Of a DNA stretch of 64,000 nucleotides, positions 1-64,000 are shown piece after piece. Each line of letters opens with the position of its first letter. Position 1 is the first letter of the stretch. The translations under genes and the position numbers were made by a program. The stretch comes from Tenacibaculum dicentrarchi (GTDB lineage: Bacteria > Bacteroidota > Bacteroidia > Flavobacteriales > Flavobacteriaceae), in NCBI RefSeq assembly GCF_964036635.1, contig NZ_OZ038524.1, forward strand, positions 1,722,001-1,786,000, in the 5' to 3' direction. The notes beneath the pieces are model-generated. The model saw only the letters and a program-made list of their open reading frames with translations, made no database searches and was not told the DNA's origin.

Positions 1-132
1 GCTAACACCGTGTATAATTAATTGCTAGTTTTAGCTCACTTTGGAAATTCCTTCGGAATTTCTGCCGTTCGTGTTTTATTTAGTAAATTAGTTGCTTAAA
101 TAACGCAACAAATCATACACAAACCGTTGTGG
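1..132 (+). repeat. attC site 0, type I variant (partly cut by window edge)
   Basis: The window opens inside the R'' box (GCTAAC at 1-6). R' is GTTGTGG at 126-132. The L arms are GTGTAT and ATACAC, with an apical hairpin GGAAATTCC/GGAATTTC. It closes the cassette to the left of the window. Crossover is predicted after G126. Confidence 0.85.
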
Positions 133-160
133 TGCATTACAAAAAAACGATATGAAATAA

Positions 161-1921: not shown

Positions 1922-1925
1922 CGCA

Positions 1926-2222: not shown

Positions 2223-3872
2223 ATGCCAGGATATAATATAGAAGGAAAAAAAATAGTTGTTTCTGATAGTAAACATAAAAAAGTTTATTGGTCAGAACTT
2301 TCTGTGTATATCAAAAAAAAACACTTTGAAAATTCTAACGAATATAATGAACCTACAAAAGTTCAAGAAATTTTAAAAGATTGTTTTACTTTCTTACTGA
2401 ATAAACTAGAATCTTTAATTAAAAATGAGAATAGATTTTCCTTTTATTTATTTTGTCATACAATCCATGAAGATTCTATTGACATTCATTTAAACTTAAT
2501 TAAAGGCAAGAAATTAGATATTAATAAAGAGAAAATAGCTGGTTCAAGAAGAATATTAAAAATAATACTTGAGCAATCTACAAGGTATAATTTGAAAGGA
2601 ACATCAAATTTCAACCATGAAATAGCAAAAAACTCATTAGAATATATCTCTTTGTTAGAAGAAATGATATATGTAGGAGAATGGGTTTTTATTTCTAGTG
2701 AATATATAGCACAGAGTCAACTGTTTCAAAAATCAATAGGTGTTAAAATGGAAGATAATGAACTTCAGTATTTAACATATCAACCTTATCCTTTATTTTT
2801 TTCTCATATATTTAATGAATTACCAAAACATGATTCAGAAGTTACTTTAACTGATTGTATCGACGATTTTAAGAATTTAATTGAAGATAAATATTCTATT
2901 AAATATAATGATTTATGTTATTTTATCGCTGAAATATTATCAAATAATTCTAATAGCCTTGGTGTTACAAAACTTCCTGAAATAATTAAAAACATCAAAG
3001 AAAACACACCTGTAAATCATAAATTTATTGACAGTTTCTATGACGGGTTAAAAATCACAAAAAATAATGCTTTAGACATAGCTCAATGTTTCTATACAAA
3101 TCAGGACATTGGAAGATATATGTATAAACCTATTTTGGAATACAACATTGATGAAAATATTTATCACTTAATAGGCCCTAATAAATGGGGAGAAAGTCTT
3201 TCTCAATTAAATACCAATTGTTTTCCATTTGGTATATTTCCTATAGAATGGAAAATCAATCATGATTTGAAAAAATTCATACAAGTAATTGATAATACTC
3301 ACGACAAAGTTTTGCAAAATCCAATAATTGAAAAACTCAAAGAACATAACCATCCTTATGAAGTAGATATTTTAAGATTTAAAACCCATAATAAACAATA
3401 CATAAATATTACAGATACAATTGGAGATATAGACATCCTTTTTATTGACATGTTTCAAAAAATAATTTATGTATCAGAATGTAAACATAATAGGTCAAGA
3501 TTTGATTACAGCAATTGGAAAAGGGATTACTCTAATTTTAAACAAAAACATGAAGCTCAATTAAAAAGGAAAATAGACTGGACTAAATCAAATAAAAAAA
3601 TAATTGAAAACCATTTCAGACTAAGAAATGAAAACCCAATTATTTTAGAATTAACAGAATACAAGATTGAGGGAATTTTTATAATTAATGCACCTAATAT
3701 ATATATGTTTAACAGTAAATATAAGTGTTATACAATACATGATTTCCAATTATTAATGAATAACGAGATTCCTTTTAATGACTTTATAATTTACGCAGAA
3801 GACAGAAAAAAAAGTTATCATATAGAGCATCCATATTTTGATAATATCGAAAAAGAAATAAACAGTGCATAA
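2223..3872 (+). CDS. hypothetical protein with PD-(D/E)xK-like nuclease core
   Basis: A 549-residue protein and the only gene of cassette 2. Around residues 400-422 the string GDIDILF, followed by YVSECKHNR, has the D...ExK pattern of PD-(D/E)xK nucleases. The rest is a long, mostly charged helical region with no signal peptide. I recognise no full-length family. A DNA-cleaving or defence role is plausible from the motif and context but unproven. The TAA stop lies inside the R'' box GCATAAC, so the attC supplies the stop codon. Confidence 0.75.
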   Translation: MPGYNIEGKKIVVSDSKHKKVYWSELSVYIKKKHFENSNEYNEPTKVQEILKDCFTFLLNKLESLIKNENRFSFYLFCHTIHEDSIDIHLNLIKGKKLDINKEKIAGSRRILKIILEQSTRYNLKGTSNFNHEIAKNSLEYISLLEEMIYVGEWVFISSEYIAQSQLFQKSIGVKMEDNELQYLTYQPYPLFFSHIFNELPKHDSEVTLTDCIDDFKNLIEDKYSIKYNDLCYFIAEILSNNSNSLGVTKLPEIIKNIKENTPVNHKFIDSFYDGLKITKNNALDIAQCFYTNQDIGRYMYKPILEYNIDENIYHLIGPNKWGESLSQLNTNCFPFGIFPIEWKINHDLKKFIQVIDNTHDKVLQNPIIEKLKEHNHPYEVDILRFKTHNKQYINITDTIGDIDILFIDMFQKIIYVSECKHNRSRFDYSNWKRDYSNFKQKHEAQLKRKIDWTKSNKKIIENHFRLRNENPIILELTEYKIEGIFIINAPNIYMFNSKYKCYTIHDFQLLMNNEIPFNDFIIYAEDRKKSYHIEHPYFDNIEKEINSA

Positions 3873-3997
3873 CAAGCTGTATAATTAATGGCTACATTGT
3901 GCTAAATTTAAAGCTCAGTAACATTTAATTAAGTCTAGTTATAAATCGAAAAATTCGGCATTTTAAAACGCCACTAACCATACAGTAACCGTTAGCT
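3867..3997 (+). repeat. attC site 2, type V
   Basis: R'' GCATAAC at 3867-3873 (holds the stop of the upstream gene) and R' GTTAGCT at 3991-3997. L arms are CTGTATAATTAATGGC and GCCACTAACCATACAG. It closes cassette 2. Confidence 0.85.
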
Positions 3998-4502
3998 TTC
4001 ATTAACAAAAAAAATGCGTGAAATTGGAAAAATAAAGCGTTTTCCTAAAGTAGAATCCTGATAAATATTACGCAATTAGAAATGGAATTTTAACGCAGAA
4101 GATTTTGAAAAATATTACGTAAGAATCTGTCCGCAATTATGAAATAGAAACGGTGGAATTTTATCCTGTTTATGCAATCGGAAATGAAAAAATGTGGGAT
4201 TCTGACAAATATTACGCAAGAATTTGTCTGTAATTATGAAATGGAAACGGCAGACTTTAGCCTGTTTATGCAATCAGAAATGAAAATTTAGACAAGTTAA
4301 ACGCCGAATAAAAATGCTGAAAAATATGTAGTTTTATATCGGTATTTTAATTGTAAAAAAGGAAAAATAAACGAAAAGCTAACAAAATATATAATTTATT
4401 GCTAGTGCTCGCCTACCTACGAAAATCCTTAGGGGATTTTCTATTTCGTTTTTATTTACTAAATTAGTTGCTCGAAAAACGCAACAAACCATATATAAAC
4501 CG
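3992..4502 (+). mobile_element. ORF-less cassette 3, family A
   Basis: A 511-bp cassette opening TTAGCTTTCATTAAC. It contains two to three degenerate copies of a repeat of about 96 bp (core ATTACGCAAGAATCTGTC), then the 3' domain shared with family B (TTTAGACAAGTTAAACGCCG at about 4287). No convincing gene. Ends with attC site 3. Confidence 0.85.
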
Positions 4503-4508
4503 TTAGCT
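4377..4508 (+). repeat. attC site 3, type I
   Basis: R'' AGCTAAC at 4377-4383 and R' GTTAGCT at 4502-4508. Apical hairpin GAAAATCCTTAGGGGATTTTC. Closes ORF-less cassette 3. Confidence 0.85.
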
Positions 4509-4956
4509 TTCATTAACAAAAAATTACGCAAAATTGGAAAAATAAAGCGGTTTAAAAAAGTAGAATCCTGATAAATATTACGCAAGAATCTGTCTGTAAT
4601 TCTGAAATGAAAACGGCAGACTTTAGCCTGTTTATGTAATCGGAAATGAAAAACTGTAGGATTCTGACAAATATTACGGAAAAATATGTTTGTAATTATG
4701 AAATGGAAACGGCAGACTTTAGCCTGTTTATGCAATCAGAAATGAAAATTTAGACAAGTTAAACGCCGAATAAAAACGCTGAAAATATGTGATTTTATAT
4801 CGGTATTTTAATTGTAAAAAAAATAACGAAAAGCTAACAAAGTATATAAAAAATGCTTAATTTAGTCATAATACAAAAGTCAGTGCCGTTTTGCTACATC
4901 TGATTTTCCTGCGGAAAATCCTCGCACACAAAACAGCACTTTTCATATACAAACCG
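4503..4956 (+). mobile_element. ORF-less cassette 4, family A (short variant)
   Basis: A 454-bp family A cassette, about 57 bp shorter than the usual 511 bp because part of the internal tandem repeat is missing. It also starts with a variant (CATTAACAAAAAATTACGC). It carries a type III attC instead of type I. No gene seen. Confidence 0.85.
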
Positions 4957-4962
4957 TTAGCT
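4832..4962 (+). repeat. attC site 4, type III
   Basis: R'' AGCTAAC at 4832-4838 and R' GTTAGCT at 4956-4962. L arms GTATATAAAAAATGCT and AGCACTTTTCATATAC; apical hairpin GATTTTCCTGCGGAAAATC. Closes cassette 4. Confidence 0.85.
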
Positions 4963-5468
4963 TTCATTAACAAAAAAAATGCGTGAAATTGGAAAAATAA
5001 AGCGTTTTCCTAAAGTAGAATCCTGATAAATATTACGCAATTAGAAATGGAATTTTAACGCAGAAGATTTTGAAAAATATTACGTAAGAATCTGTCCGCA
5101 ATTATGAAATAGAAACGGTGGAATTTTATCCTGTTTATGCAATCGGAAATGAAAATCTGTGGGATTCTGACAAATATTACGCAAGAATCTGTCTGTAATT
5201 CTGAAATGAAAATGGCGGACTTTTAGCCTGTTTACGAAATTAGGAATGAAAATTTAGACAAGTTAAACGCCGAATAAAAACGCTGAAAAATATGTGGTTT
5301 TATATCGGTATTTTAATTGTAAAAAAGGAAAAATAAACGAAAAGCTAACAAAATATATAATTTATTGCTAGTGCTCGCCTACCTACGAAAATCCTTAGGG
5401 GATTTTCTATTTCGTTTTTATTTACTAAATTAGTTGCTCGAAGAACACAACAAACCATATATAAACCG
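4957..5468 (+). mobile_element. ORF-less cassette 5, family A
   Basis: A 512-bp family A cassette, near-identical over most of its length to cassette 3. Tandem repeats in the middle, shared 3' domain near 5253-5325, type I attC. No gene seen. Cassettes 3-5 are three family A units in a row. Confidence 0.85.
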
Positions 5469-5474
5469 TTGGTA
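5343..5474 (+). repeat. attC site 5, type I
   Basis: R'' AGCTAAC at 5343-5349 and R' GTTGGTA at 5468-5474. Closes cassette 5. Confidence 0.85.
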
Positions 5475-6402: not shown

Positions 6403-6535
6403 TACCAACACCGTATATAATTTATTGCTAGTTCTAGCCTACTTACGAAAATCCTTAGGGGATTTTCTATTCCGTTTTTATTTACTAAATTTAGTGCTTT
6501 AAAAACGCAACAAACCATATACAAAAACGTTGTAG
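6403..6535 (+). repeat. attC site 6, type I
   Basis: R'' TACCAAC at 6403-6409 and R' GTTGTAG at 6529-6535. Closes cassette 6; start GTTGGTACAC matches end GTGTACCAAC exactly. Confidence 0.87.
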
Positions 6536-7376: not shown

Positions 7377-7572
7377 CTACAACAACACCTATAATTAATA
7401 AGGGTTTTAAGTGTTAAATCCAAAAGTTAGTGTATATTTACTAAGTCCGCCAAATCATTTTGATTTGTCTTTCGATATAAAAAAATAAAAACAAACAAAA
7501 TGCTTTGGCTAAGTGTTAAATTGAAAGTCCGTGACTTTCTATTCCCTTACTAACCATAGCTAAACGTTAGCT
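7377..7572 (+). repeat. attC site 7, type IV (long)
   Basis: R'' CTACAAC at 7377-7383 and R' GTTAGCT at 7566-7572. 196 bp, clearly related to attC site 1 (shared CAAATCATTTTGATTTG hairpin). Closes cassette 7. Confidence 0.82.
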
Positions 7573-8077
7573 TTCATTAACAAAAAAAATGCGTGAAATT
7601 GGAAAAATAAAGCGTTTTCCTAAAGTAGAATCCTGATAAATATTACGCAATTAGAAATGGAATTTTAACGCAGAAGATTTTGAAAAATATTACGTAAGAA
7701 TCTGTCCGCAATTATGAAATAGAAACGGCAGACTTTATCCTGTTTATGCAATCGGAAATGAAAAAATGTGGGATTCTGACAAATATTACGCAAGAATCTG
7801 TCTGTAATTCTGAAATGAAAATGGCGGACTTTTAGCCTGTTTACGAAATTAGGAATGAAAATTTAGACAAGTTAAACGCCGAATAAAAACGCTGAAAAAT
7901 ATGTGGTTTTATATCGGTATTTTAATTGTAAAAAAGGAAAAATAAACGAAAAGCTAACAAAATATATAATTTATTGCTAGTGCTCGCCTACCTACGAAAA
8001 TCCTTAGGGGATTTTCTATTTCGTTTTTATTTACTAAATTAGTTGCCCGAAAAACACAACAAACCATATATAAACCG
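7567..8077 (+). mobile_element. ORF-less cassette 8, family A
   Basis: A 511-bp family A unit with the usual internal tandem repeats and shared 3' domain, ending in a type I attC. No gene seen. Confidence 0.85.
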
Positions 8078-8083
8078 TTGGCT
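7952..8083 (+). repeat. attC site 8, type I
   Basis: R'' AGCTAAC at 7952-7958 and R' GTTGGCT at 8077-8083. Closes cassette 8. Confidence 0.85.
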
Positions 8084-8523: not shown

Positions 8524-8657
8524 AGCCAACACCATATAAAAAAAATTGCTAAATTAGTGCTTAATTAAAGGCAGTTGCATTTTTATCAACTTCTGAATTT
8601 CCTTCGGAAATTCCTCGCTGACAAAACCGCAACTTTCCTTATACATAAACGTTGTAA
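8524..8657 (+). repeat. attC site 9, rare subtype
   Basis: R'' AGCCAAC at 8524-8530 and R' GTTGTAA at 8651-8657. Apical hairpin GAATTTCCTTCGGAAATTC. Closes cassette 9; start GTTGGCTGTA matches end TACAGCCAAC exactly. Confidence 0.85.
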
Positions 8658-9704: not shown

Positions 9705-9836
9705 TTACAACAGCATATATAATTTATTGCTAGTACTAGCCTACTTACGAAAATCCTTAGGGGATTTTCTATTCCGTTTTTATTTACTAAATTTAGTGCT
9801 TTAAAAACGCAACAAACCATATACAAATCGTTAGCT
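9705..9836 (+). repeat. attC site 10, type I
   Basis: R'' TTACAAC at 9705-9711 and R' GTTAGCT at 9830-9836. Closes cassette 10. Confidence 0.85.
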
Positions 9837-10341
9837 TTCATTAACAAAAAAAATGCGTGAAATTGGAAAAATAAAGCGTTTTCCTAAAGTAGAATCCTGA
9901 TAAATATTACGCAATTAGAAATGGAATTTTAACGCAGAAGATTTTGAAAAATATTACGTAAAATCTGTCCGCAATTATGAAATAGAAACGGTGGAATTTT
10001 ATCCTGTTTATGCAATCGGAAATGAAAAACTGTGGGATTCTGACAAATATTACGCAAGAATCTGTCTGTAATTCTGAAATGAAAATGGCGGACTTTTAGC
10101 CTGTTTGCGAAATTAGGAATGAAAATTTAGACAAGTTAAACGCCGAATAAAAACGCTGAAAAATATGTGGTTTTATATCGGTATTTTAATTGTAAATAAG
10201 GAAAAATAAACGAAAAGCTAACAAAATATATAATTTATTGCTAGTGCTCGCCTACCTACGAAAATCCTTAGGGGATTTTCTATTTCGTTTTTATTTACTA
10301 AATTAGTTGCTCGAAAAACACAACAAACCATATATAAACCG
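9831..10341 (+). mobile_element. ORF-less cassette 11, family A
   Basis: A 511-bp family A unit. Same tandem-repeat middle and shared 3' domain as cassette 3. No gene seen. It abuts a family B unit. Confidence 0.85.
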
Positions 10342-10347
10342 TTAACC
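10216..10347 (+). repeat. attC site 11, type I
   Basis: R'' AGCTAAC at 10216-10222 and R' GTTAACC at 10341-10347. Closes cassette 11. Confidence 0.85.
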
Positions 10348-10784
10348 TGCATTAAGCCAAATTACACGGAATATTAACGTAATTAAGCGTTTTCGAAAAG
10401 TAAAACCCTGACAAAGATTACGTGAATCTGTTTGTAATGAAAATAGCGGACTTTCTAGCTCGTTTACGCAATAGAAACGGAATCGTAAAACAGTAGATTT
10501 TGACAAATATCACGTAAGAATTTGTCTATAATTCCGAAATGAAAATGGCGGACTTTTTAGCTCGTTTACGCAATAGAAAATAAAAAAATGTTCGGAATAT
10601 TGCCGATTTTAGATTTTTTCACGTAAGTTTATATCAAAATTTAGACAAGTTAAACGCCGAATAAAAACGCTGAAAAATGTGTGATTTTATAACGGTATTT
10701 TAATTAAAAAAGAAAAAACGCACGTTAACAAAGTGTATGAGCGCATATTTTCCTGGCGGAAAAATACGCCACATACACTAGGCG
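10342..10784 (+). mobile_element. ORF-less cassette 12, family B
   Basis: A 443-bp family B unit opening TTAACCTGCATTAAGCC. Two degenerate copies of the ACG-AAGAATTTGTC...GGCGGACTTTTTAGCTCG repeat precede the 3' domain shared with family A. Short open frames (14-19 codons) occur in the repeats but no convincing gene. Ends in a 68-bp type II attC. Confidence 0.85.
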
Positions 10785-10790
10785 TTGGCA
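10723..10790 (+). repeat. attC site 12, type II (short)
   Basis: R'' CGTTAAC at 10723-10729 and R' GTTGGCA at 10784-10790. Stem GTGTATG...CATACAC with inner TTTTCCTGGCGGAAAA. Closes cassette 12. Confidence 0.87.
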
Positions 10791-10834
10791 ATAATTAAAA
10801 TGATACTCCTCCATTCAATAACTTAGATGAGATA

Positions 10835-12934
10835 ATGAAACAAATAAAAATAATAATTACCTTATTAATTACTTTAGTTTTCAATGTTAGTTGCAGTCAA
10901 GAAACTAAAGAAGACACTTTTGATATTGCAAAAATAAAACTTACTGAATCAGAAGAAACAAGGTTAAACAAAAGCCTTGACTACATAAACAATTTAACTT
11001 TAGATGAAATAAAAAAAGAATTTAAAAAAAATATTACATCTATAAAAAAAGCAGTTTATACAGAAAAAGAAACTGTTTTTAATAAAGATAGTATTTTAGA
11101 AGAAGAGTATATTTTACCTTTTAGATTATATTTAAAAGGGATAAAAAAACAAGTAGAAGTTCTTAAAAAACACACTTATTTAATTCAAAATTTTAAAAAT
11201 GATAGTACCTACCTTAAGTTTGATACAAAAAATCAATATATCACAAACTACCACGAAGATAGAACAGTATTTGAAGATATATATACATTGAAGAAAAAAT
11301 ATTTAAATACTAAAGAAATTGATACTATTTTTAATAAAGAAGCATATTTCAAGTTTGGTCGTTTTGATATAGAATATGGTAAAGCAAAATATATAGACAG
11401 TTTATTAGTTACTGCTAATATTAACTACACTAAAGCATATGATACAATTGTTTTTGGTAAAAAAGAAATACTTAAAAATAAAAAAGGCATTATAATAAAT
11501 GAAATAACAAATAACTATGTTCATTTTCAAAATATTGACAATGTAGATTTTTTTAAAATTGAAGCTTATAACAATAAAGGCAAAAAATTAAAAGAAAAAG
11601 AACAGAGAAATTATTCTCCAAATACATTAAAAAAAGAAAATAAGGAACGTTTAAAAATAGCAGAAAAGACCTATCAAAATATTAAAAATATAGAATCTCT
11701 CGAAATCGTAAAAGAAGAAATAAAAAAAATATTTTATAAATACATCTTATTAGAACGTAAATACAATAGTTCACAATATAGTTTTCAAGGTAATATTGAT
11801 AAAATAAAGTTTTATATAGAAAAAGAAAGGGAGAATTTAGATTTCGATTTCATTGTTAAAAATAAATTTCCTTCAACATTTTATTTAAATCAATTGGAAA
11901 AAGAAACTTTGGTAATGAATACTAAAAATGAATTACTCTTTACAATTCCTGAAACGAATCTTAGTTACTTAACATTTGACGGTTTTGATAAAATTAATCA
12001 ATTTTATCTAAAAAATAAAGAAGATGAAAGTCAATACTTTTATTTAAATCCAAAAACAAAAATATTTAAAAAAATAAAGGACGTTTATATTAGGGCACTT
12101 ACAACCAATTTTGTTGAAGTTGAAAAAAGTGACAATGAGTTTTATGCTATTTATAATAATGAGTTTGAAAATGTATCAGGATTTATATACATAAATATTG
12201 AAGTACAAAAATACAATGACGAGTTTTATATTATTGCACAAAAAGAAGATAGAACATATACATTTATAAACAACAAAGGAGAAGAAATAGGAACAAAAGG
12301 TTTAACTAATATTAGAACAAGTTATTTTGAGTATGCTCCTATTGTTTCTGCAATTAAAAACAATAAAATAGGTTTTGTAGATGGAAATGGTGAAACAAAA
12401 GCACCCTTTATATATGATATTTATAATGTCCAGTTTTTAGATCTACAAATAAAAAAAAATAATTTGTATGGTCTTATGGGATATAATGGCAAGCCTTCAA
12501 TTCCATTAATTTATGACAAATTAGAAAGGTTTTACAACAACTTATACATTGTAACAAAAAATGGAAAACAAGGTATTGTAGATAGTAATAACAAAACTAT
12601 CCTACCCATAAAATATACAATTTGGAAAGAAGAATTAGAAAAATTACATATGGTTACTTGTAATGGAAAAGCAGGTTATATTAACAGAAAAGGGAAAATA
12701 ACTATCCCTGTTATGTATAAGAGAGGTAGGTTTAGTGGCTCTTATGGCTTTAGCGATGGTTTTGCTAAAGTTAGGAGAATAGAAGATAATAAAAGCACTA
12801 TAATAAATGAAAAAAACGAAGTTGTAATACCTTGGACTTACACTACAATTAGTTATAAATATCATAAAGGGGGAAAAAGAACTTATACTATAGGCTCTAA
12901 AAAATACAATCATCTATTACAGTTAATTGAATAA
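10835..12934 (+). CDS. WG-repeat lipoprotein, 699 aa
   Basis: The N-terminus is a lipoprotein signal (hydrophobic residues 4-18, lipobox ending VSC at C20), so it should be membrane-anchored and exported. The middle is a lysine-rich helical region. From about residue 480 to 660 there are several WG/KWGY-type repeats, seen as IGFVDGNG, YGLMGYNG, QGIVDSNN and AGYINRKG, each followed by IPx-Y. WG-repeat proteins are common in Bacteroidota; a binding role is usual but undefined. Sole gene of cassette 13, about 50 nt into the unit and with no visible promoter. It is one of the longest cassettes here. Confidence 0.85.
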   Translation: MKQIKIIITLLITLVFNVSCSQETKEDTFDIAKIKLTESEETRLNKSLDYINNLTLDEIKKEFKKNITSIKKAVYTEKETVFNKDSILEEEYILPFRLYLKGIKKQVEVLKKHTYLIQNFKNDSTYLKFDTKNQYITNYHEDRTVFEDIYTLKKKYLNTKEIDTIFNKEAYFKFGRFDIEYGKAKYIDSLLVTANINYTKAYDTIVFGKKEILKNKKGIIINEITNNYVHFQNIDNVDFFKIEAYNNKGKKLKEKEQRNYSPNTLKKENKERLKIAEKTYQNIKNIESLEIVKEEIKKIFYKYILLERKYNSSQYSFQGNIDKIKFYIEKERENLDFDFIVKNKFPSTFYLNQLEKETLVMNTKNELLFTIPETNLSYLTFDGFDKINQFYLKNKEDESQYFYLNPKTKIFKKIKDVYIRALTTNFVEVEKSDNEFYAIYNNEFENVSGFIYINIEVQKYNDEFYIIAQKEDRTYTFINNKGEEIGTKGLTNIRTSYFEYAPIVSAIKNNKIGFVDGNGETKAPFIYDIYNVQFLDLQIKKNNLYGLMGYNGKPSIPLIYDKLERFYNNLYIVTKNGKQGIVDSNNKTILPIKYTIWKEELEKLHMVTCNGKAGYINRKGKITIPVMYKRGRFSGSYGFSDGFAKVRRIEDNKSTIINEKNEVVIPWTYTTISYKYHKGGKRTYTIGSKKYNHLLQLIE

Positions 12935-12964
12935 TATTTAACAGATTGGACATAATAAAACTAT

Positions 12965-13096
12965 TGCCAACACCGTATAAAATTAATTGCTAGTTTTAGC
13001 CAATTTACGAAAGTCCTCGCGGACTTTCTATCTGTGATTTATTTGCTAACTTTAGTGCTTAAAATACGCAACTAATCTTATACAACAACGTTGCCA
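12965..13096 (+). repeat. attC site 13, type I variant
   Basis: R'' TGCCAAC at 12965-12971 and R' GTTGCCA at 13090-13096. Apical hairpin GAAAGTCCTCGCGGACTTTC. Closes cassette 13; start GTTGGCAATA matches end TATTGCCAAC exactly. Confidence 0.87.
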
Positions 13097-13774: not shown

Positions 13775-13907
13775 TGGCAACAAGGTATATAATTTATTAC
13801 TAGTACTAACCTACTTACGAAAATCCTTAGGGGATTTTCTATTCCGCTTTTATTTACTAAATTAGTTGCTCAAAATACGCAACAAATAATATACAAAAAC
13901 GTTAACC
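13775..13907 (+). repeat. attC site 14, type I
   Basis: R'' TGGCAAC at 13775-13781, directly after the upstream stop codon; R' GTTAACC at 13901-13907. Closes cassette 14; start GTTGCCATTA matches end TAATGGCAAC exactly. Confidence 0.87.
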
Positions 13908-14350: not shown

Positions 14351-14356
14351 TTAGCT
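14289..14356 (+). repeat. attC site 15, type II (short)
   Basis: R'' CGTTAAC at 14289-14295 and R' GTTAGCT at 14350-14356. Closes cassette 15. Confidence 0.87.
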
Positions 14357-49919: not shown

Positions 49920-49934
49920 TAAAAACATCAAATT

Positions 49935-50316: not shown

Positions 50317-50449
50317 GGGTAACACCGTATATAATTTATTACTAGTACTATCCTACTTACGAAAATCCTTAGGGGATTTTCTATTCCGCTTTTATTTACT
50401 AAATTAGTTGCTCGAAATACGCAACAAATAATATACAAAAACGTTAACC
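50317..50449 (+). repeat. attC site 56, type I
   Basis: R'' GGGTAAC at 50317-50323 and R' GTTAACC at 50443-50449. Closes cassette 56; start GTTACCCTTT matches end AAAGGGTAAC. Confidence 0.87.
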
Positions 50450-50892
50450 TGCATTAAGCCAAATTACACGGAATATTAACGGAATTAAGCGTTTTCGAAA
50501 AGTAAAATCCTGACAAAGATTACGTGAATCTGTTTGTAATGAAAATAGCCGACTTTCTAGCTCGTTTACGCAATCGAAACGGAATCGTAAAACAGTAAAT
50601 TTTGACAAATATCACGTAAGATTTTGCTTATAATTCCGAAATGAAAATGGCGGACTTTTTAGCTCGTTTACGCAATCGAAAATAAAAATGAAAAAATGTT
50701 CGGAATATTCCCGATGTTAGATTTTTTAGCGTAAGTTTATATGAAAATTTAGACAAGTTAAATGCCGAATAAAAACGCTGAAAAATATGTGATTTTATAA
50801 CGGTATTTTAATTAAAAAAGAAAAAACGCACGTTAACAAAGTGTATGAGCGCATATTTTCCTGGCGGAAAAATACGCCACATACACTAGGCG
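50444..50892 (+). mobile_element. ORF-less cassette 57, family B
   Basis: A 449-bp family B unit. No gene seen. Confidence 0.85.
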
Positions 50893-50898
50893 TTAGCA
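50831..50898 (+). repeat. attC site 57, type II (short)
   Basis: R'' CGTTAAC at 50831-50837 and R' GTTAGCA at 50892-50898. Closes cassette 57. Confidence 0.87.
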
Positions 50899-51569: not shown

Positions 51570-51703
51570 TGCTAACACCATATATAATTTATTGCTAGCA
51601 AATCGCTTACTTACGAAAATCCTCACGGATTTTCTAGGTTAGTTTTTATTTAGTAAATTAGTTGCTTAAACCACGCAACAAACCATATATAAACACGTTA
51701 ACC
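51570..51703 (+). repeat. attC site 58, type I variant
   Basis: R'' TGCTAAC at 51570-51576 and R' GTTAACC at 51697-51703. Apical hairpin GAAAATCCTCACGGATTTTC. Closes cassette 58. Confidence 0.86.
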
Positions 51704-52146
51704 TGCATTAAGCCAAATTACACAGAATATTAACGTAATTAAGCGTTTTCGAAAAGTAAAATCCTGACAAAGATTACGTGAATCTGTTTGTAATGAAAAT
51801 AGCCGACTTTCTAGCTCGTTTACGCAATAGAAACGGAATCGTAAAACAGCAGATTTTGAAAAATATTACGTAAGATTTTGCTTATAATTCCGAAATGAAA
51901 ATGGCGGACTTTTTAGCTCGTTTACGCAATCGAAAATAAAAATGAAAAAATGTTCGGAATATTCCCGATTTTAGATTTTTTAGCGTAAGTTTATATGAAA
52001 ATTTAGACAAGTTAAACGCCGAATAAAAACGCTGAAAAATGTGTGATTTTATAACGGTATTTTAATTAAAAAAGAAAAAACGCACGTTAACAAAGTGTAT
52101 GAGAGCATATTCTCCTAGCGGAAAAATACGCCACATACACTAGGCG
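51698..52146 (+). mobile_element. ORF-less cassette 59, family B
   Basis: A 449-bp family B unit. Its attC loop carries two changes (GAGAGCATATTCTCCTAGCGG). No gene seen. Confidence 0.85.
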
Positions 52147-52152
52147 TTAGCT
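52085..52152 (+). repeat. attC site 59, type II (short)
   Basis: R'' CGTTAAC at 52085-52091 and R' GTTAGCT at 52146-52152. The inner TTCTCCTAGCGGAAAA stem is weakened relative to other type II sites. Closes cassette 59. Confidence 0.85.
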
Positions 52153-52701
52153 TTCATTAACAAAAAATTACGCAAAATTGGAAAAATAAAGCGGTTTAAA
52201 AAAGTAGAATCCTGATAAATATTACGCAAGAATCTGTCTGTAATTCTGAAATGAAAACGGCGGACTTTTAGCCTGTTTATGCAATCGGAAATCAAAAACT
52301 GTGGGATTCTGACAAATATTACGTAAGAATCTGTTTGTAATTCTGAAATGAAAACGGCGGACTTTTAACCTGTTTATGCAATCGGAAATCAAAAACTGTG
52401 GGATTCTGACAAATATTACGTAAGAATCTGTTTGTAATTCTGAAATGAAAATGGCGGACTTTTAGCCTGTTTATACAATCAGAAATGAAAATTTAGACAA
52501 GTTAAACGCCGAATAAAAATGCTGAAAAATATGTGATTTTATAACAGTATTTTAATTGTAAAAAAAATAACGAAAAGCTAACAACGTATATAAAAAATGC
52601 TTAATTTGGTCATAACACAAAAGTTAGTGCCGTTTTGCTACATCTGATTTTCCTGCGGAAAATCCTCGCACACAAAACAGCACTTTTTATACACAAAACC
52701 G
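52147..52701 (+). mobile_element. ORF-less cassette 60, family A (expanded)
   Basis: A 555-bp family A unit in which the internal repeat (CTGTGGGATTCTGACAAA... ) is present in near-identical tandem copies at about 52300 and 52396, 96 nt apart. Type III attC. No gene seen. Confidence 0.85.
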
Positions 52702-52707
52702 TTGGCA
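52576..52707 (+). repeat. attC site 60, type III
   Basis: R'' AGCTAAC at 52576-52582 and R' GTTGGCA at 52701-52707. Closes cassette 60. Confidence 0.85.
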
Positions 52708-53231: not shown

Positions 53232-53363
53232 TGCCAACACCGTGCATAGTTCATTGCTTGTTCATTTTCCTTCGGAAAATTCTCGCACACGTCGAAGTTT
53301 GAGGTTTTTAAACTATATTAGTGCTATAATTCCGCAACGAAACCATGCACAAACACGTTAGCA
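53232..53363 (+). repeat. attC site 61, type VI
   Basis: R'' TGCCAAC at 53232-53238 and R' GTTAGCA at 53357-53363. Same subtype as site 19. Closes cassette 61. Confidence 0.86.
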
Positions 53364-54092: not shown

Positions 54093-54225
54093 TGCTAACA
54101 ACATATATAATTTATTGCTAGTGCTTATCTACTTACGAAAATCCTTAGGGGATTTTCTATTCCGTTTTTATTTAATATATTTAGAACTTGAAATACGCAA
54201 CAAACCATATATAAAACCGTTAACC
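54093..54225 (+). repeat. attC site 62, type Ib
   Basis: R'' TGCTAAC at 54093-54099 and R' GTTAACC at 54219-54225. Closes cassette 62; start GTTAGCACCA matches end TGGTGCTAAC exactly. Confidence 0.87.
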
Positions 54226-54667
54226 TGCATTAAGCCAAATTACACGGAATATTAACGTAATTAAGCGTTTTCGAAAAGTAAAATCCTGACAAAGATTACG
54301 TGAATCTGTTTGTAATGAAAATAGCCGACTTTCTAGCTCATTTGCGCAGTAGAAACGGAATCGTAAAACAGCAGATTTTGAAAAATATTACGTAAGATTT
54401 TGCTTATAATTCCGAAATAAAACCGCAGACTTTTTAGCTCGTTTACGCAATCGAAAATAAAAATGAAAAAATGTTCGGAATATCCCCGATTTTAGATTTT
54501 TTCACGTAAGTTTATATGAAAATTTAGACAAGTTAAACGCCCAATAAAAACGCTGAAAAATATGTGATTTTATAACGGTATTTTAATTAAAAAAGAAAAA
54601 ACGCATGTTAACAAAGTGTATGAGCGCATATTTTCCTGGCGGAAAAATACGCCACATACACTAGGCG
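54220..54667 (+). mobile_element. ORF-less cassette 63, family B
   Basis: A 448-bp family B unit; a diverged copy (AAACCGCAGAC in the second repeat, end ACGCATGTTAAC). No gene seen. Confidence 0.85.
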
Positions 54668-54673
54668 TTACCA
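54606..54673 (+). repeat. attC site 63, type II (short)
   Basis: R'' TGTTAAC at 54606-54612, a variant of the usual CGTTAAC; R' GTTACCA at 54667-54673. Closes cassette 63. Confidence 0.86.
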
Positions 54674-56030: not shown

Positions 56031-56161
56031 TGGTAACACCGTATATAATTTATTGCTAGTGCTAGCCTACTTACGAAAATCCTTAGGGGATTTTCTATTC
56101 CGTTTTATTTACTAAATTAGTTGCTCGAAACACGCAACAAACCATATACAAAACGTTAGCT
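56031..56161 (+). repeat. attC site 64, type I
   Basis: R'' TGGTAAC at 56031-56037 and R' GTTAGCT at 56155-56161. Closes cassette 64. Confidence 0.86.
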
Positions 56162-56658
56162 TTCATTAACAAAAAATACGCAAAAATTGAAAAAATAAAG
56201 CGGTTTAAAAAAGTAGAATCCTGATAAATATTACGCAATTAGAAATGGAATTTTAACGCAGAATATTTTGAAAAATATTACGTAAGAATCTGTCCGCAAT
56301 TATGAAATAGAAACGGCAGACTTTAGCCTGTTTATGCAATCGGAAATGAAAAACTGTGGGATTCTGACAAATATTACGCAAGAATCTGTCTGTAATTCTG
56401 AAATGAAAATGGCGGACTTTTAGCCTGTTTGCGAAATTAGGAATGAAAATTTAGACAAGTTAAACGCCGAATAAAAACGCTGAAAATATGTGATTTTATA
56501 ACAGTATTTTAATTGTAAAAAAAATTAACGAAAAGCTAACAACGTATATAAAAAATGCTTAATTTAGTCATAATACAAAAGTCAGTGCCGTTTTGCTACA
56601 TCTGATTTTCCTGCGGAAAATCCTCGTACACAAAACAGCACTTTTCATATACTAACCG
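56156..56658 (+). mobile_element. ORF-less cassette 65, family A
   Basis: A 503-bp family A unit with a type III attC and a leader variant (CATTAACAAAAAATACGC). No gene seen. Confidence 0.85.
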
Positions 56659-56664
56659 TTGGCT
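56534..56664 (+). repeat. attC site 65, type III
   Basis: R'' AGCTAAC at 56534-56540 and R' GTTGGCT at 56658-56664. Closes cassette 65. Confidence 0.85.
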
Positions 56665-58089: not shown

Positions 58090-58222
58090 AGCCAACACCG
58101 TGTATAATTAATTGCTGGTTTCGGCTCACTTTGGAAAATCCTACGGATTTTCAGCGTTCGATTTTTATTTACTAAATTTATTACTTGAACATCGCAACTA
58201 ATCATACACCAAACCGTTAACC
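58090..58222 (+). repeat. attC site 66, type I variant
   Basis: R'' AGCCAAC at 58090-58096 and R' GTTAACC at 58216-58222. L arms GTGTATAATTAATTGC and CAACTAATCATACAC. Closes cassette 66. Confidence 0.86.
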
Positions 58223-58665
58223 TGCATTAAGCCAAATTACACGGAATATTAACGGAATTAAGCGTTTTCGAAAAGTAAAATCCTGACAAAGATTACGTGA
58301 ATCTGTTTGTAATGAAAATAGCGGACTTTCTAGCTCGTTTGCGCAATAGAAACGGAATCGTAAAACAGTAGGTTTTGAAAAATATCACGTAAGATTTTGC
58401 TTATAATTCCGAAATGAAAATGGCGGACTTTTTAGCTCGTTTACGTAATCGAAAATAAAAATGAAAAAATGTTCGGAATATCCCCGATTTTAGATTTTTT
58501 AGCGTAAGTTTATATGAAAATTTAGACAAGTTAAACGCCGAATAAAAACGCTGAAAAATGTGTGATTTTATAACGGTATTTTAATTAAAAAAGAAAAAAC
58601 GCACGTTAACAAAGTGTATGAGCGCATATTTTCCTGGCGGAAAAATACGCCACATACACATGACG
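58217..58665 (+). mobile_element. ORF-less cassette 67, family B
   Basis: A 449-bp family B unit; attC spacer ACACATGACGTT. Followed by D, B and B units, the longest gene-less run here (about 1.85 kb). No gene seen. Confidence 0.85.
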
Positions 58666-58671
58666 TTGCAA
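58604..58671 (+). repeat. attC site 67, type II (short)
   Basis: R'' CGTTAAC at 58604-58610 and R' GTTGCAA at 58665-58671. Closes cassette 67. Confidence 0.87.
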
Positions 58672-59171
58672 TTAATGGCGGAATTTCAGCCTGAAATTCC
58701 TAATTAGTGATTTATCTTTTCTAGAAATTAATATTGAATAATATTGCGCTGGAAAAATTGAAAATGACTGCTACTCTATTTTTAGATAGTAAACCCTAAA
58801 AAAGAGAAAAAACAGAATTGAACGCTGAAAAATAAAGCGTGAATAAATAAGCGGAAATTAATTAGGGCGGAGTTTTAAGCTGAAACGTGAAAAAAACAGA
58901 ATTGAACGCTGAAAATAAAGCGTGAATAAATAGGAGGAAATTAATTAAAGCGGAGTTTTAAGTAGAAACGTAAAAAAAAGAAATAGAAATAAAACGGAAA
59001 AATTGAAAATTAAGAAATGAGAAATTTAGTTAGAAAATCACTAATTGCAACAACATATATAATTTATTGCTAGTGTTTATCTACTTACGAAAATCCTTAG
59101 GGGATTTTCTATTCCGTTTTTATTTAATATATTTAGAACTTGAAACACGCAACAAACCATATATAAAACCG
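58666..59171 (+). mobile_element. ORF-less cassette 68, family D
   Basis: A 506-bp family D unit with the 5' hairpin and two tandem repeats. Tags GTTGCAATTAATG / CACTAATTGCAAC again differ from other D copies in a compensated way. No gene seen. Confidence 0.82.
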
Positions 59172-59177
59172 TTAACC
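59045..59177 (+). repeat. attC site 68, type Ib
   Basis: R'' TTGCAAC at 59045-59051 and R' GTTAACC at 59171-59177. Closes cassette 68. Confidence 0.85.
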
Positions 59178-59621
59178 TGCATTAAGCCAAATTACACGAA
59201 ATATTAACGTAATTAAACATTTTCGAAAAGTAAAATTCTGACAAAGATTACGTGAATCTGTTTGTAATGAAAACAGCGGATTTCCTAGCTTATTTGCGCA
59301 ATCAAAACGGAATTGTAAAACAGCAGATTTTGAAAAATATCACGCAAGAATTTGTCTATAATTCCGAAATGAAAATGGCGGACTTTTTAGCTCGTTTACG
59401 CAATCGAAAATAAAAATGAAAAAATGTTCTGAATATTCCCAATTTTAGATTTTTTAGCGTAAGTTTATATGAAAATTTAGACAAGTTAAACGCCGAATAA
59501 AAACGCTGAAAAATATGTGATTTTATAACGGTATTTTAATTAAAAAAGAAAAAAACGCACGTTAACAAAGTGTATGAGCGCATATTTTCCTGGCGGAAAA
59601 ATACGCCACATACACTAGGCG
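59172..59621 (+). mobile_element. ORF-less cassette 69, family B (holds a 48-codon frame)
   Basis: A 450-bp family B unit. Unlike other copies, an ATG at 59267 opens a 48-codon frame to a TAA at 59411-59413, spanning both repeat units (each contains ADFLA-LRN). In other copies the same frame is closed by TAG or TAA at former CAG/CAA positions. Whether this frame is translated is unknown. Confidence 0.82.
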
Positions 59622-59627
59622 TTAACC
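59560..59627 (+). repeat. attC site 69, type II (short)
   Basis: R'' CGTTAAC at 59560-59566 and R' GTTAACC at 59621-59627. Closes cassette 69. Confidence 0.87.
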
Positions 59628-60069
59628 TGCATTAAGCCAAGTTACACGGAATATTAACGTAATTAAGCGTTTTCGAAAAGTAAAATCCTGACAAAGATTA
59701 CGTGAATCTGTTTGTAATGAAAACAGCGGACTTTCTAGCTCGTTTACGCAATAGAAACGGAATCGTAAAACAGCAGATTTTAAAAAATATCACGTAAGAA
59801 TTTGTCTATAATTCCGAAATAAAACCGTAGATTTTTTAGCTCGTTTACGCAATCGAAAATAAAAATGAAAAAATGTTCGGAATATTCCCGATTTTAGATT
59901 TTTTAGCGTAAGTTTATATGAAAATTTAGACAAGTTAAACGCCGAATAAAAATGCTGAAAAATATGTGATTTTATAACGGTATTTTAATTAAAAAAGAAA
60001 AAACGCACGTTAACAAAGTGTATGAGCGCATATTTTCCTGGCGGAAAAATACGCCACATACACTAGGCG
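59622..60069 (+). mobile_element. ORF-less cassette 70, family B
   Basis: A 448-bp family B unit in tandem with cassette 69. No gene seen. Confidence 0.85.
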
Positions 60070-60075
60070 TTAGTA
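60008..60075 (+). repeat. attC site 70, type II (short)
   Basis: R'' CGTTAAC at 60008-60014 and R' GTTAGTA at 60069-60075. Closes cassette 70. Confidence 0.87.
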
Positions 60076-60904: not shown

Positions 60905-61034
60905 CACTAACACCGTATATAATTTATTGCTAGTACTCACCTACTTACGAAAATCCTTAGGGGATTTTCTATCCCGTTTTTATTTACTAAATTAGTTGCT
61001 CGAAACGCAACAAATCATATACAAAACGTTGGGC
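60905..61034 (+). repeat. attC site 71, type I
   Basis: R'' CACTAAC at 60905-60911 and R' GTTGGGC at 61028-61034. Closes cassette 71. Confidence 0.86.
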
Positions 61035-61056: not shown

Positions 61057-63972
61057 ATGAATAGCATTGAGAAGCTGAAAGAAAATTTAAATGAACAACA
61101 ATTAGAAGCTGTAACAGAAACTGAAGGTTTTGTTAGAGTAATAGCAGGTGCAGGTTCGGGAAAAACAAAAGCTCTTACTTCAAGATATGCATATATAGTT
61201 GAAGCATTAGGAATTAACTCTTCTAATATCCTCTGTGTAACCTTTACAAATAAGGCTGCACAAGAAATGCGGAAAAGAGTAAAAAGATTAGTCGGAGAAA
61301 ATTCAGATTTGAGTTATATAACTACTTATCACGGATTTTGCGTTAGAGTTTTAAGAGAGGACATAAACAAGCTAAAGTACCCTAAGAACTTCATAATAAT
61401 GGACGTTGAAGATCAGAAGACCGTTCTTCGTCAAGTATATAATGAACTTGGTTTAACATCAAAAGTATTCACTTTCAAACAAGTATTAAGATATATAAGT
61501 AAACAAAAAAACTCACAAGAATATTTGCAATATATACTTGAATCCAAGAAAAAAGAAACCGATAATGAAATCGAAAAAGTATTTATAAGATACTTAGAAA
61601 AACAACAACGGAATTTTGCTTTAGACTTTGACGACCTACTAAATTTTGCACTTTATATATTTGTAAATAATCCAGACACTCTTGAAAAGTGGCAGAAAAG
61701 ACTGCATTACATTCAAGTAGACGAAACTCAAGATAGTTCGCAAAAACAATTTATGTTAATTGAGATGCTCTCACAAATTCATGAAAATCTTTTTGTTGTT
61801 GGCGACCCAGACCAAACTATTTATGAATGGAGAGGTGCTAAACCCGAAATTCTGGTTGATTTTGATAAACAATTCGTTGATTCAAAGACAATTATAATGA
61901 ATCAAAATTATCGTTCCACACCGAATATATTAAACCTTGGAAATCATATTATCAAAAACAACAAGATTAGGGTTGATAAAGATATGTTTACTCAAAATCC
62001 CGAAGGAGTCGAAGTTGTCCATTTTCACGGTAAAAATGATTATGAGGAAGGTTTATGGGTTGCAAATGAAATTAAGAAACTTGTAGCTAACGAAACGTGT
62101 AAACATTCAGACTTTGCCATTTTATATAGAGCCAATCACATTTCACGCAGCATCGAACAATCTCTAATTAGAGAGAATATCCCTTATTCTGTTTTTGGTG
62201 GCATTAGATTTTTTGAACGTAAAGAAATTAAAGATGTACTTGCTTATTTAAGATTGGTTGAACTTGGGGATGATTTTTCTTTTCTAAGAGTAGTTAATAC
62301 TCCAAGCAGAGGTTTAGGTAAAAAGTTTATTGAAAATGTAGCCAAAATTGCCGAAAAGGAAAATATTTCTCTTTACTCAGCATTAAAAGAAAATATATCA
62401 CAAAAGGATTTAAGTCGTAAAGGAGCCATAGAATTTATAGAATTAATCGAAAAGTTTAAAAAAACAAAAAATGATTTAATTATCTCAGATTTAACCAAAG
62501 AAATAATGGACGAAAGTGGTCTTTCTGCGTATTATAGAACTGATGGAGACACAGATAGATTAGACAATGTAAAAGAACTTCAAAACTCTATTATTTTATT
62601 AGAAACACAGGATGAAGAACAAATAAATCTTACTGAGTATTTGCAAGAAATAGCACTCTATACAAATATGGATATTGAAGACGATAAAAATGATAGAGTT
62701 AAATTAATGACCATTCATACTTCTAAAGGTTTAGAATTTCCTTACGTTTTTCTTTGCGGTTTTACAGAAGGGGTTTTACCGAGTGCAATGTCAATTAAGG
62801 AAAGAAGAGCAAAAGCCATTGAAGAAGAAAGACGTTTGACCTATGTTGCTATAACAAGAGCTGAAAAAGCATTTTATATGACCGAATCTGAAGGTTTCAA
62901 TTTCAGTACAGGTCTAAATAAATACCCTTCACGCTTTCTCTTTGAAATAAGCGATAACTATTTTGTTCGTAAAGGTGAATTAAGTCAAGAAATTATAGAT
63001 GAAGCCAAAGAACAACTCAAATTAGATTCAACTCGCCAATCTATGCAAAAAAGATTTGAAGTTGGAGATATAGTAAATCATGCTATTTGGAAACAAGGAA
63101 AAATTATTGAAGTAAACGAAGACAAAGGTGAGTATCAAATTGAATTCTCTGAAACATTAAAGGTTAAACCAATAAATTTTGAATTTAGAGGGCTGTCAAT
63201 AATAGATGTGCCTGCCGAAAAAAATGATGAAACCAAAGAAGAAGCCGAACGAGTTGAAAGAGAAAAAGCTGAATTGAAATCCAAAGAAGAAGCCGAACGA
63301 GTTGAAAGAGAAAAGGCTGAATTGAAAGCCAAAGAAGAAGCTGAACGAGTTGAAAGAGAAAAGTCTGAATTGAAAGCCAAAGAAGAAGCCGAACGAATTG
63401 AAAGAGAAAAGGCTGAATTGAAAGCTAATGAAGAAGCTGAACGAGTTGAAAGAGAAAAGTCTGAATTGAAAGCCAAAGAAGAAGCCGAACGAATTGAAAG
63501 AGAAAAGGCTGAATTGAAAGCTAATGAAGAAGCTGAACGAGTTGAAAGAGAAAAGTCTGAATTGAAAGCCAAAGAAGAAGCCGAACGAATTGAAAGAGAA
63601 AAGGCTGAATTGAAAGCTAATGAAGAAGCTGAACGAGTTGAAAGAGAAAAGTCTGAATTGAAAGCCAAAGAAGAAGCCGAACGAGTTGAAAGAGAAAAAG
63701 CTGAATTGAAATCCAAAGAAGAAGCTGAACGAGTTGAAAGAGAAAAGTCTGAATTGAAAGCCAAAGAAGAAGCCGAACGAATTGAAAGAGAAAAGTCTGA
63801 ATTGAAAGCCAAAGAAGAAGCCGAACGAATTGAAAGAGAAAAAACTGAGTTGAAAGCTAATGAAGAAGTACTAAGCCCAACAAAGTATAAAAATAATGGC
63901 GGAGATCCAGAAAAACACGTAGATAGTACAAGTAATAATTTTTGGTCTAGATTTAAAAAGTTGTGGTCTTAA
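61057..63972 (+). CDS. UvrD/Rep-family SF1A helicase with repeat tail
   Basis: A 971-residue protein. Q-motif NEQQLEAV, Walker A GAGSGKTKALT (about 32-42), motif Ia FTNKAAQEMRKR, motif II VDETQDSS (about 224), motif III GDPDQTIYEWRG, motif IV QNYRSTPNI, motif V MTIHTSKGLEF (about 551) and motif VI TYVAITRAEKAFYM are all present. A KOW/Tudor-like segment follows (VGDIVNHAIWKQGKIIEV, about 669). Residues 728-935 are 13 copies of a 16-residue charged repeat. The last 32 or so residues are encoded within the attC of cassette 72. UvrD-like helicases pair with OLD nucleases in Gabija, but none is adjacent here. Confidence 0.93.
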   Translation: MNSIEKLKENLNEQQLEAVTETEGFVRVIAGAGSGKTKALTSRYAYIVEALGINSSNILCVTFTNKAAQEMRKRVKRLVGENSDLSYITTYHGFCVRVLREDINKLKYPKNFIIMDVEDQKTVLRQVYNELGLTSKVFTFKQVLRYISKQKNSQEYLQYILESKKKETDNEIEKVFIRYLEKQQRNFALDFDDLLNFALYIFVNNPDTLEKWQKRLHYIQVDETQDSSQKQFMLIEMLSQIHENLFVVGDPDQTIYEWRGAKPEILVDFDKQFVDSKTIIMNQNYRSTPNILNLGNHIIKNNKIRVDKDMFTQNPEGVEVVHFHGKNDYEEGLWVANEIKKLVANETCKHSDFAILYRANHISRSIEQSLIRENIPYSVFGGIRFFERKEIKDVLAYLRLVELGDDFSFLRVVNTPSRGLGKKFIENVAKIAEKENISLYSALKENISQKDLSRKGAIEFIELIEKFKKTKNDLIISDLTKEIMDESGLSAYYRTDGDTDRLDNVKELQNSIILLETQDEEQINLTEYLQEIALYTNMDIEDDKNDRVKLMTIHTSKGLEFPYVFLCGFTEGVLPSAMSIKERRAKAIEEERRLTYVAITRAEKAFYMTESEGFNFSTGLNKYPSRFLFEISDNYFVRKGELSQEIIDEAKEQLKLDSTRQSMQKRFEVGDIVNHAIWKQGKIIEVNEDKGEYQIEFSETLKVKPINFEFRGLSIIDVPAEKNDETKEEAERVEREKAELKSKEEAERVEREKAELKAKEEAERVEREKSELKAKEEAERIEREKAELKANEEAERVEREKSELKAKEEAERIEREKAELKANEEAERVEREKSELKAKEEAERIEREKAELKANEEAERVEREKSELKAKEEAERVEREKAELKSKEEAERVEREKSELKAKEEAERIEREKSELKAKEEAERIEREKTELKANEEVLSPTKYKNNGGDPEKHVDSTSNNFWSRFKKLWS
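63238..63861 (+). repeat. 48-bp minisatellite in the UvrD gene (13 copies)
   Basis: Thirteen in-frame copies of a 48-bp unit encode EEAERVEREKAELKAK with A/S, V/I and K/N variants. Copies 3-8 form three near-identical 96-bp dimers, which points to recent tandem duplication. The protein product is a highly charged helix. Confidence 0.93.
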
Positions 63973-64000
63973 TCCCGCCACTATTCTTATACAGACCGTT
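63875..64000 (+). repeat. attC site 72, type VII, overlapping the UvrD coding end (cut by window edge)
   Basis: R'' GCCCAAC at 63875-63881 and GTT at 63998-64000; the rest of R' is outside. L arms GTATAAAAATAATGGCGG and CCGCCACTATTCTTATAC. Cassette start GTTGGGCTTA matches end TAAGCCCAAC exactly, so this is the cassette's own attC even though the gene reads through it. Confidence 0.86.

Follow-up and report, generated by a model that had tools for sequence, protein, structure and literature searches.

A 181-kb cassette array in the chromosome of Tenacibaculum dicentrarchi, probably a very large integron of variant kind whose recombinase lacks the IntI-specific domain

The closest described counterparts of the element reported here are the superintegrons of Vibrio, served by the integrase IntI, and the recombinase-associated acquired interbacterial defence (rAID) loci of Bacteroidales, reportedly the subject of a study by Ross et al. 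in 2019. The available part of PMC12247911 describes rAID as an immunity-gene system in which a tyrosine recombinase precedes short genes of common orientation whose intergenic regions carry conserved motifs, its mode of building being under active research, while the available part of PMC8946536 quotes 217 cassettes for Vibrio vulnificus. The present study concerns a window of 64,000 nucleotides, namely positions 1722001 to 1786000 of the single contig (NZ_OZ038524.1, 2,808,268 bases; termed G000:C1 in coordinates) of a Tenacibaculum dicentrarchi genome. This species is a fish pathogen. Very probably, a sedentary chromosomal integron with 202 attC sites extends here over 181 kb (G000:C1:1617584-1798688), with the window as its middle third; the array makes up 6.4% of the genome and has a median cassette size of 558 bp. 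The array can be regarded as a genuine integron, very large and of variant type, and its size is close to that of the largest Vibrio case quoted (217 cassettes; PMC8946536, in the part available).

As in the Vibrio superintegrons, the array comprises a recombinase, an attI-like site and a long one-way series of hairpin attC sites with the bottom strand folding better, and its cassettes include toxin-antitoxin genes, defence genes and units without a gene. Unlike in those systems, the recombinase is without the IntI-specific domain and is co-directional with the array, the core of the sites is YAAC/CGTTR instead of RYYYAAC/GTTRRRY, and an inverted repeat is present at attI. A recombinase, co-oriented short genes and a conserved intergenic motif are shared with the rAID loci of Bacteroidales, but the cassettes of the window do not appear to be mainly immunity genes; Pfam assigned the 40 window proteins scanned to restriction, toxin-antitoxin, ATPase or other families or to nothing, with no search aimed at immunity genes having been made. 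An earlier examination of the letters of the window (hereafter the sequence-only reading) had proposed an integron-type array in a flavobacterium, continuing past both edges of the window. This was borne out as to plan (sites, cassette units, recombinase and attI-like site) and as to extent, since the window (positions 1-64000, + strand) holds a middle part of the 202 sites. It also held for the host, as the array recombinase was 99.7 to 100% identical to that of T. dicentrarchi TDCHD05 and 96-97% identical to that of T. finnmarkense.

In the window, 73 sites with an R'' box (YAAC) and an R' box (CGTTR) were found to bound 72 complete cassettes, the numbers originally given being upheld by the curated sites and by a covariance model. 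Across the whole array the YAAC core was kept in 202 of 202 sites and CGTTR in 201 of 202, with ATT in place of GTT in one site. The classical R boxes RYYYAAC and GTTRRRY were matched by 6 of 202 sites each; the boxes noted beforehand (..YAAC and GTT...) are not of the classical form. The distance from AAC to GTT was 113-123 bases in 132 of the 202 sites, 57-58 in 61 and 182-186 in 9. The bottom strand was found to fold more stably in 54 of 55 distinct window sites, compared with 24% of 300 control stretches (DNA parameters). A consensus fold of this strand contained 18 pairs, which form two stems (R and L) on either side of an unequal spacer, and 12 of the 18 pairs showed at least one change on both sides. 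The feature set of attC (R and L boxes, a hairpin and a better-folding bottom strand) is present in the array sites.

Rebuilding a covariance model from the sites had been recommended in the sequence-only reading. The covariance model used here (R1) returned 203 matches in the 200 kb in and around the window, two of them double-counted at overlaps; the 202 array sites are the model matches plus one site set by hand. At E <= 0.01, R1 gave no match in 20 stretches of 20 kb (400 kb) elsewhere in the same genome. A scan of the whole genome, in which only 150 candidates were scored, gave 130 matches, all but one of them inside the array (list read by eye). A lone decayed attC was observed far from the array (G000:C1:2514727-2514858; L135 2728-2859), which has lost its GTT and has an equal-scoring match in TDCHD05. 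Small open reading frames (ORFs) rich in cysteine, zinc-ribbon-like by eye and without a Pfam match, were seen beside this lone attC (L135 4803-5153) and beside the integrase (L009 9963-10328). A free duplex scan for sites was also tried and rejected as too loose (266 forward and 364 reverse hits, where a shuffled sequence scored with an equal threshold gave 202), the curated sites and the covariance model being used instead.

All attC sites of the window lie on the minus strand, given here from AAC to GTT, with the bottom strand folding. The first is found at 4-128 and the last at 63879-64000. Two are of the long type (1930-2117 and 7381-7568). Sites of the short type are situated at 10727-10786, 14293-14352, 15255-15314, 17583-17642, 18872-18931, 19321-19380, 21254-21313, 21896-21955, 26306-26365, 30843-30902, 48164-48223 (the site set by hand, absent from the R1 list at E <= 0.01), 50835-50894, 52089-52148, 54610-54669, 58608-58667, 59564-59623 and 60012-60071. 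The other sites in the first half of the window occur at 3871-3993, 4381-4504, 4836-4958, 5347-5470, 6407-6531, 7956-8079, 8528-8653, 9709-9832, 10220-10343, 12969-13092, 13779-13903, 14741-14864, 15908-16033, 16577-16700, 17070-17193, 18358-18481, 19768-19891, 20741-20864, 22919-23043, 23432-23555, 23936-24060, 24498-24621, 25216-25337, 25792-25916, 27024-27147, 29011-29134, 29819-29942 and 30330-30453, and those in the second half at 32000-32123, 33641-33762, 34429-34552, 36824-36948, 38946-39070, 40512-40637, 41366-41490, 43223-43345, 44463-44587, 46351-46466, 46848-46970, 47649-47772, 48922-49045, 49424-49548, 50321-50445, 51574-51699, 52580-52703, 53236-53359, 54097-54221, 56035-56157, 56538-56660, 58094-58218, 59049-59173 and 60909-61030.

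In an integron, a cassette that was once a circle has first bases that pair with its own last bases, which allows a test that needs no site model. For the 72 window cassettes, the first 8 bases agreed with the reverse complement of the cassette's own end at a mean of 7.58 of 8 positions, against 5.03 when the starts were permuted (largest of 2000 permutations, 5.49) and 4.94 when the start of the next cassette, the physical neighbour, was used. Over the whole array the mean for the first 10 bases was 9.18 of 10, against 5.52 when permuted (largest of 1000, 5.95), with 190 of the 202 cassettes scoring 9 or 10 and ten scoring under 8. Among these ten, one is the first cassette (10 of 10 with its start set right), one reflects the choice of AAC and three carry transposase pair insertions. 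Complementarity with the own end, and not with the neighbour, is the signature to be expected of circles closed at G|TT. An array built by tandem duplication, in which the repeats are terminator or repetitive extragenic palindrome (REP)-like hairpins between genes, would be in keeping with the 56 copies of one gene-less unit found here, but not with the own-end complementarity, nor with the base-exact ends of identity at G|TT in different neighbourhoods described below. In addition, 102 of the 202 units are without an ORF of 60 amino acids (aa), which makes a terminator role unfitting, and this explanation is regarded as extremely improbable.

Comparison with strain TDCHD05 revealed how the cassettes differ between two closely related genomes. 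The DNA flanking the array is 99% identical over 8.3 kb, and this identity spans the recombinase and attI and ends at the first cassette, which differs. In TDCHD05, 62 scored sites were spread over many short contigs, and 16 stretches (91 kb) were used for comparison. Full-length copies of at least 95% identity were found in these stretches for 78 of the 202 cassettes (73 gene-less and 5 coding), a count that is a lower bound as the stretches are from a draft. All five shared coding cassettes have a different left neighbour in TDCHD05; cassette 35 combines a new left neighbour with the same start of its right neighbour. Two coding cassettes were checked base by base, namely that of a WG-repeat protein (10784-13089, +; 2306 bp, 100% identical) and one of 817 bp (99%). 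Both stand between other neighbours on both sides, and beyond their bounds only the preceding C and the following GTT are in common with TDCHD05. Shared coding cassettes 165 and 182 were not anchored by exact words and were not counted as base-exact. Excision and insertion at G|TT would produce just such identity, ending at G|TT in other neighbourhoods, and as judged from these two strains, gain and loss concern whole cassettes with the cut at G|TT, the kind of strain difference that had been anticipated for an integron. The 72 cassettes of the window are apparently part of an exchangeable stock of about 200 gene cassettes.

A single tyrosine recombinase of 391 aa was identified at the left end of the array (G000:C1:1616366-1617541), 104 kb left of the window and on the side on which an integrase had been expected. 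It reads toward the cassettes and is co-directional with the array, unlike the divergent layout of classical integrons. The G of the first cassette lies 43 bases past the recombinase stop codon, and this interval accommodates a stretch resembling a palindrome as well as a core G|TT. From these features, the inverted repeat behind the stop codon was taken as a putative attI, the kind of site that the sequence-only reading had proposed to look for, though the palindrome is imperfect in the host genome.

The recombinase possesses the Pfam domains PF00589 and PF13495, and its motifs place the predicted active tyrosine at residue 374. It scored 195.9 bits with the integron-integrase model (cut-off 265) and passed NF040815 (XerA-like; 'site-specific tyrosine recombinase/integron integrase') with 230.8 bits (cut-off 220). 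The extra domain specific to IntI, which the sequence-only reading had expected, is missing: in an alignment to the Vibrio integrase 2a3v both sides of the gap align, with 71 residues in 2a3v and 24 in the recombinase between them. Correspondingly, the distance between the motifs GLRxxE and HxLRH was 91-92 aa in 41 of 41 rows of class A, the class of this recombinase (three of them duplicates; of 45 rows, the 4 with a stop or too short were excluded), and 91 in 9 of 10 class-B rows, as compared to 133 for IntI (11 of 13 rows) and 95-99 for Xer (9 rows); one class-B row and two IntI rows had no readable motif. The predicted structure of the recombinase was of middling quality (predicted local distance difference test 78.5, predicted template modelling score 0.47), with XerA (5hxy) as best match and IntI4 (2a3v) at rank 4, and was not used for mechanism. 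A search of the genome gave no integron-integrase match over the cut-off, so that strictly an IntI-type recombinase is absent, while the cassettes do break precisely at G|TT; an integron with another type of integrase fits both of these findings.

The recombinase and the sites were found to be widespread in the family. Among 299 sampled family genomes, 193 matched the recombinase at E <= 1e-40 and 254 held R1 matches at E <= 0.001 (no more than 11 candidates being scored in any one genome). R1 matches were also present in 74 of 296 genomes of the phylum as defined by GTDB, some of them outside the family. In the same 296 genomes the classical IntI model matched 86 at E <= 1e-50 and 84 over its cut-off; one of these 86 genomes belongs to the same taxonomic class and 85 to other classes, with none of those listed being in Flavobacteriaceae. 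R1 gave no match within 1.5 kb of 15 classical IntI genes.

To examine linkage, 20 recombinases on long contigs were chosen and about 9 kb was taken on each side. All 115 R1 matches were situated on one side of the recombinase and pointed away from it, in 20 of 20 loci; the sites lay downstream of the recombinase in 17 loci, whereas in 3 they were upstream of it, which is the divergent layout of classical integrons. This divergent position relative to the array was observed for a 355-aa recombinase type at L091, L092 and L094. Behind the class-A recombinase, 30 of 46 loci had an inverted repeat with arms of at least 8, a feature of 2.2% of shuffles, although the count is crude as the longest repeat sometimes lies inside the first cassette. 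The G|TT of the first cassette is often within a few bases of the repeat, and the sequence of the repeat varies by genus while the palindrome is kept. These results argue against the idea that XerC/XerD or another recombinase acts on the sites in trans and that the adjacent gene is unrelated. XerD- and XerC-like recombinases do exist in the genome, yet the one-sided placement of all 115 matches beside this recombinase family, and the inverted repeat and core directly behind the recombinase in many genera, make such action in trans very improbable.

A tree built from 46 rows set the recombinases of integron type and IS91 type apart from Xer (100/100). IntI formed one clade (100/100) and class A another (98/97), the order among them not being resolved, and a single clade of the domain-less Bacteroidota rows was not rejected (approximately unbiased test, p-AU 0.36). 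It could be proposed that a classical IntI integron recently lost the extra domain of its integrase and is now dead, leaving the array as a relic. This would agree with a recombinase below the integron-integrase cut-off whose activity is deduced from sequence, and with an in-frame stop in 3 of 45 class-A rows, which do not enter the counts. The short motif distance, however, is common to all class-A rows kept and to every class-B row with a readable motif, which head arrays where looked at, IntI forms a clade of its own, and two strains at 99% identity have few coding cassettes in common. A relic is accordingly considered very unlikely.

Beyond the anatomy, the precise units, the strand bias and the recombinase-site linkage across genera, all of which were observed, a mechanism can be proposed for the array recombinase. 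The enzyme would bind the folded bottom strand of a cassette hairpin, cut at G|TT and join a circular cassette to attI, and would excise cassettes between two hairpins. The role of the extra domain may be taken by the N-terminal domain or by the conserved stem (YAAC/CGTTR, TGTAT/ATACA). Several points weigh against an integron worked in this manner. Folded-strand binding and joining at G|TT by this enzyme are inferred from sequence. The palindrome behind the recombinase is imperfect in the host genome, where the longest perfect repeat lies in the first cassette, and five of the 202 cassettes, beyond those accounted for above, match their own end poorly. Four other tyrosine recombinases are encoded in the genome, so another enzyme could in principle act, and family genomes with sites outnumber those with a strong relative of the recombinase (254 vs 193 of 299). 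Furthermore, published work considers the domain necessary or essential. It is treated as a defining trait in the available part of a paper on Archaea (PMC9668308), which describes the finder profile as built on it. The insertion is described by Smyshlyaev et al. (PMC8138268, in the part available) as not fully conserved in the integron-like subgroup of tyrosine recombinases yet essential for function, whereas here recombinases without the domain head attC arrays.

Regarding the cassette contents, 37 of the 72 window cassettes contain an ORF of at least 60 aa and 35 are gene-less. The longest ORF runs in the array direction in 36 of the 37, in agreement with the single orientation of nearly all genes reported in the sequence-only reading. 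For the whole array, such ORFs are present in 100 of 202 cassettes (the longest running with the array in 94 and against it in 6) and lacking in 102. A single gene-less cassette, about 450 bp long, accounts with its copies for 56 of the 202. Short hairpins (57-58 bases) terminate 57 gene-less and 4 coding cassettes, and the short, nearly perfect hairpin of the 56-copy cassette suggests, as an idea, a well-recombining cassette that may spread itself. In the window, the gene-less cassettes present in many copies include 16 starting GTTAACCTGC (56 of 202 in the array) and 13 starting GTTAGCTTTC. The GTTAACCTGC type was detected by DNA search in 3 of 58 genus genomes, including the host; outside those, one genome showed 83% identity over most of its length and another shorter pieces.

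Pfam families among the 40 window proteins included Mrr-type restriction enzyme, AAA_15/OLD-type ATPases, Schlafen-type helicase, GmrSD-type nuclease, Abi_C, protein kinase and toxin-antitoxin, and 8 of 10 proteins examined with PADLOC had matches. Cassette genes, all on the plus strand, encode an Mrr-type type IV restriction enzyme (21974-22906), a PemK/MazF-type toxin with a MazE-like antitoxin (33831-34390; the antitoxin below the Pfam cut-off), a Schlafen group 3 helicase that is PADLOC candidate PDC-S41 (36973-38937), a HigB-type toxin with a helix-turn-helix (HTH) protein (49623-50312) and a UvrD-type helicase (61057-63972; best PADLOC models RTasHel and GajB). Genes begin a median of 32 bases into their cassette. 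The flavobacterial promoter motif (consensus TTG-N17-23-TAnnTTTG) was not enriched, with 13 occurrences in the array direction and 29 in reverse against a shuffle mean of 18.9. As genes start close to the cassette start and this motif is not enriched, the cassette genes probably rely on transcription from upstream. The TAnnTTTG part was rarest in gene-less cassettes, leaving promoter cassettes of the Vibrio kind without support, although such promoters are given as not predictable in silico in the available part of PMC11014356.

A transposase gene pair (HTH and rve domains) that is outside the integron plan was found inserted in a cassette at 34625-35877 (+), with a second copy, 97% identical, at 44659-45911 (+). 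The array region holds a third full copy (G000:C1:1791698-1792950) and a partial one (1798762-1799382). In all three cassettes with a full pair the ends no longer match, as after a deletion beside the insertion. Scans of the window for Rfam families and for tRNA genes each gave zero matches. Ordinary chromosomal genes flank the array on both sides, identified by Pfam on the left as enoyl-ACP reductase, RecN-type ATPase, CoaBC flavoprotein, YfiO, ferritin and dihydrodipicolinate synthase, and on the right as acetate/butyrate-kinase-type and phosphate acetyl/butyryl-transferase genes. The dnaA gene lies at 1820133, and as the guanine-cytosine (GC) skew (sampled) was ambiguous, no claim on the leading or lagging strand is made for the array.

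Related loci were also found outside the family. On a Bacteroides ovatus plasmid (L127, NZ_CP081918.1, 4974-11053), a domain-less relative of the recombinase heads a run of nine small co-directional genes, of which several have immunity domains in their annotation; R1 finds no site there, and similar intergenic hairpins were seen by eye. From its layout this is read as a rAID locus, and the rAID loci of Bacteroidales look related to the domain-less integron type. Plasmid loci of Rufibacter and Persicobacter gave one R1 match each, with more hairpins seen by eye in Rufibacter. Plasmid pHH1107 (L125, FJ012881.1, 3052-5073) carries a truncated recombinase, tpnF, an attI-like palindrome and tet(X3) in the position of a first cassette. 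TpnF is 54% identical to the host recombinase over residues 158-391, and the available part of PMC7722449 traces Tet(X) to Flavobacteriaceae relatives. At the end of tet(X3), the expected own-end match was not found and there was no R1 site, which makes pHH1107 a lead only. Recombinases beside IS91-family transposases are also related, being without the extra domain in the 4 of 6 rows that were measurable, but their annotations show no cassette array. In each of the six plasmid loci read (L129-L134), a related tyrosine recombinase lies immediately upstream of a transposase, which is annotated as IS91-family in five of them and has no name in the other.

An earlier description of a domain-less integron class was not found in the literature searched, with most subscription papers outside that search. 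The available part of the IntegronFinder 2.0 survey of more than 20,000 genomes (PMC9024848) lists a single complete integron for Bacteroidetes proper, that of Salinibacter ruber, and the description of T. larymnensis, in the part available, used IntegronFinder 2.0 and reports no integrons (PMC10013915). Across the GTDB phylum as a whole, classical IntI is not uncommon (84 of 296 over the cut-off), in contrast to none listed in Flavobacteriaceae. We somewhat favour the view that two or more integron lineages exist, one being IntI with the extra domain and another serving most Flavobacteriaceae and reaching Cytophagia, Saprospiraceae and, as rAID, Bacteroidales. On this view, recombination at folded sites would be older than or independent of the domain, the second lineage would have been overlooked because finders demand the domain, and some mobile genes, such as tet(X3) on pHH1107, would have departed from their genomes of origin as first cassettes. 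Should the domain-less recombinase prove active, integron recombination could no longer be said to require the extra domain, the building of rAID loci would become testable, and an extensive reserve of cassettes for defence and toxin-antitoxin functions, hidden so far, would come into view.

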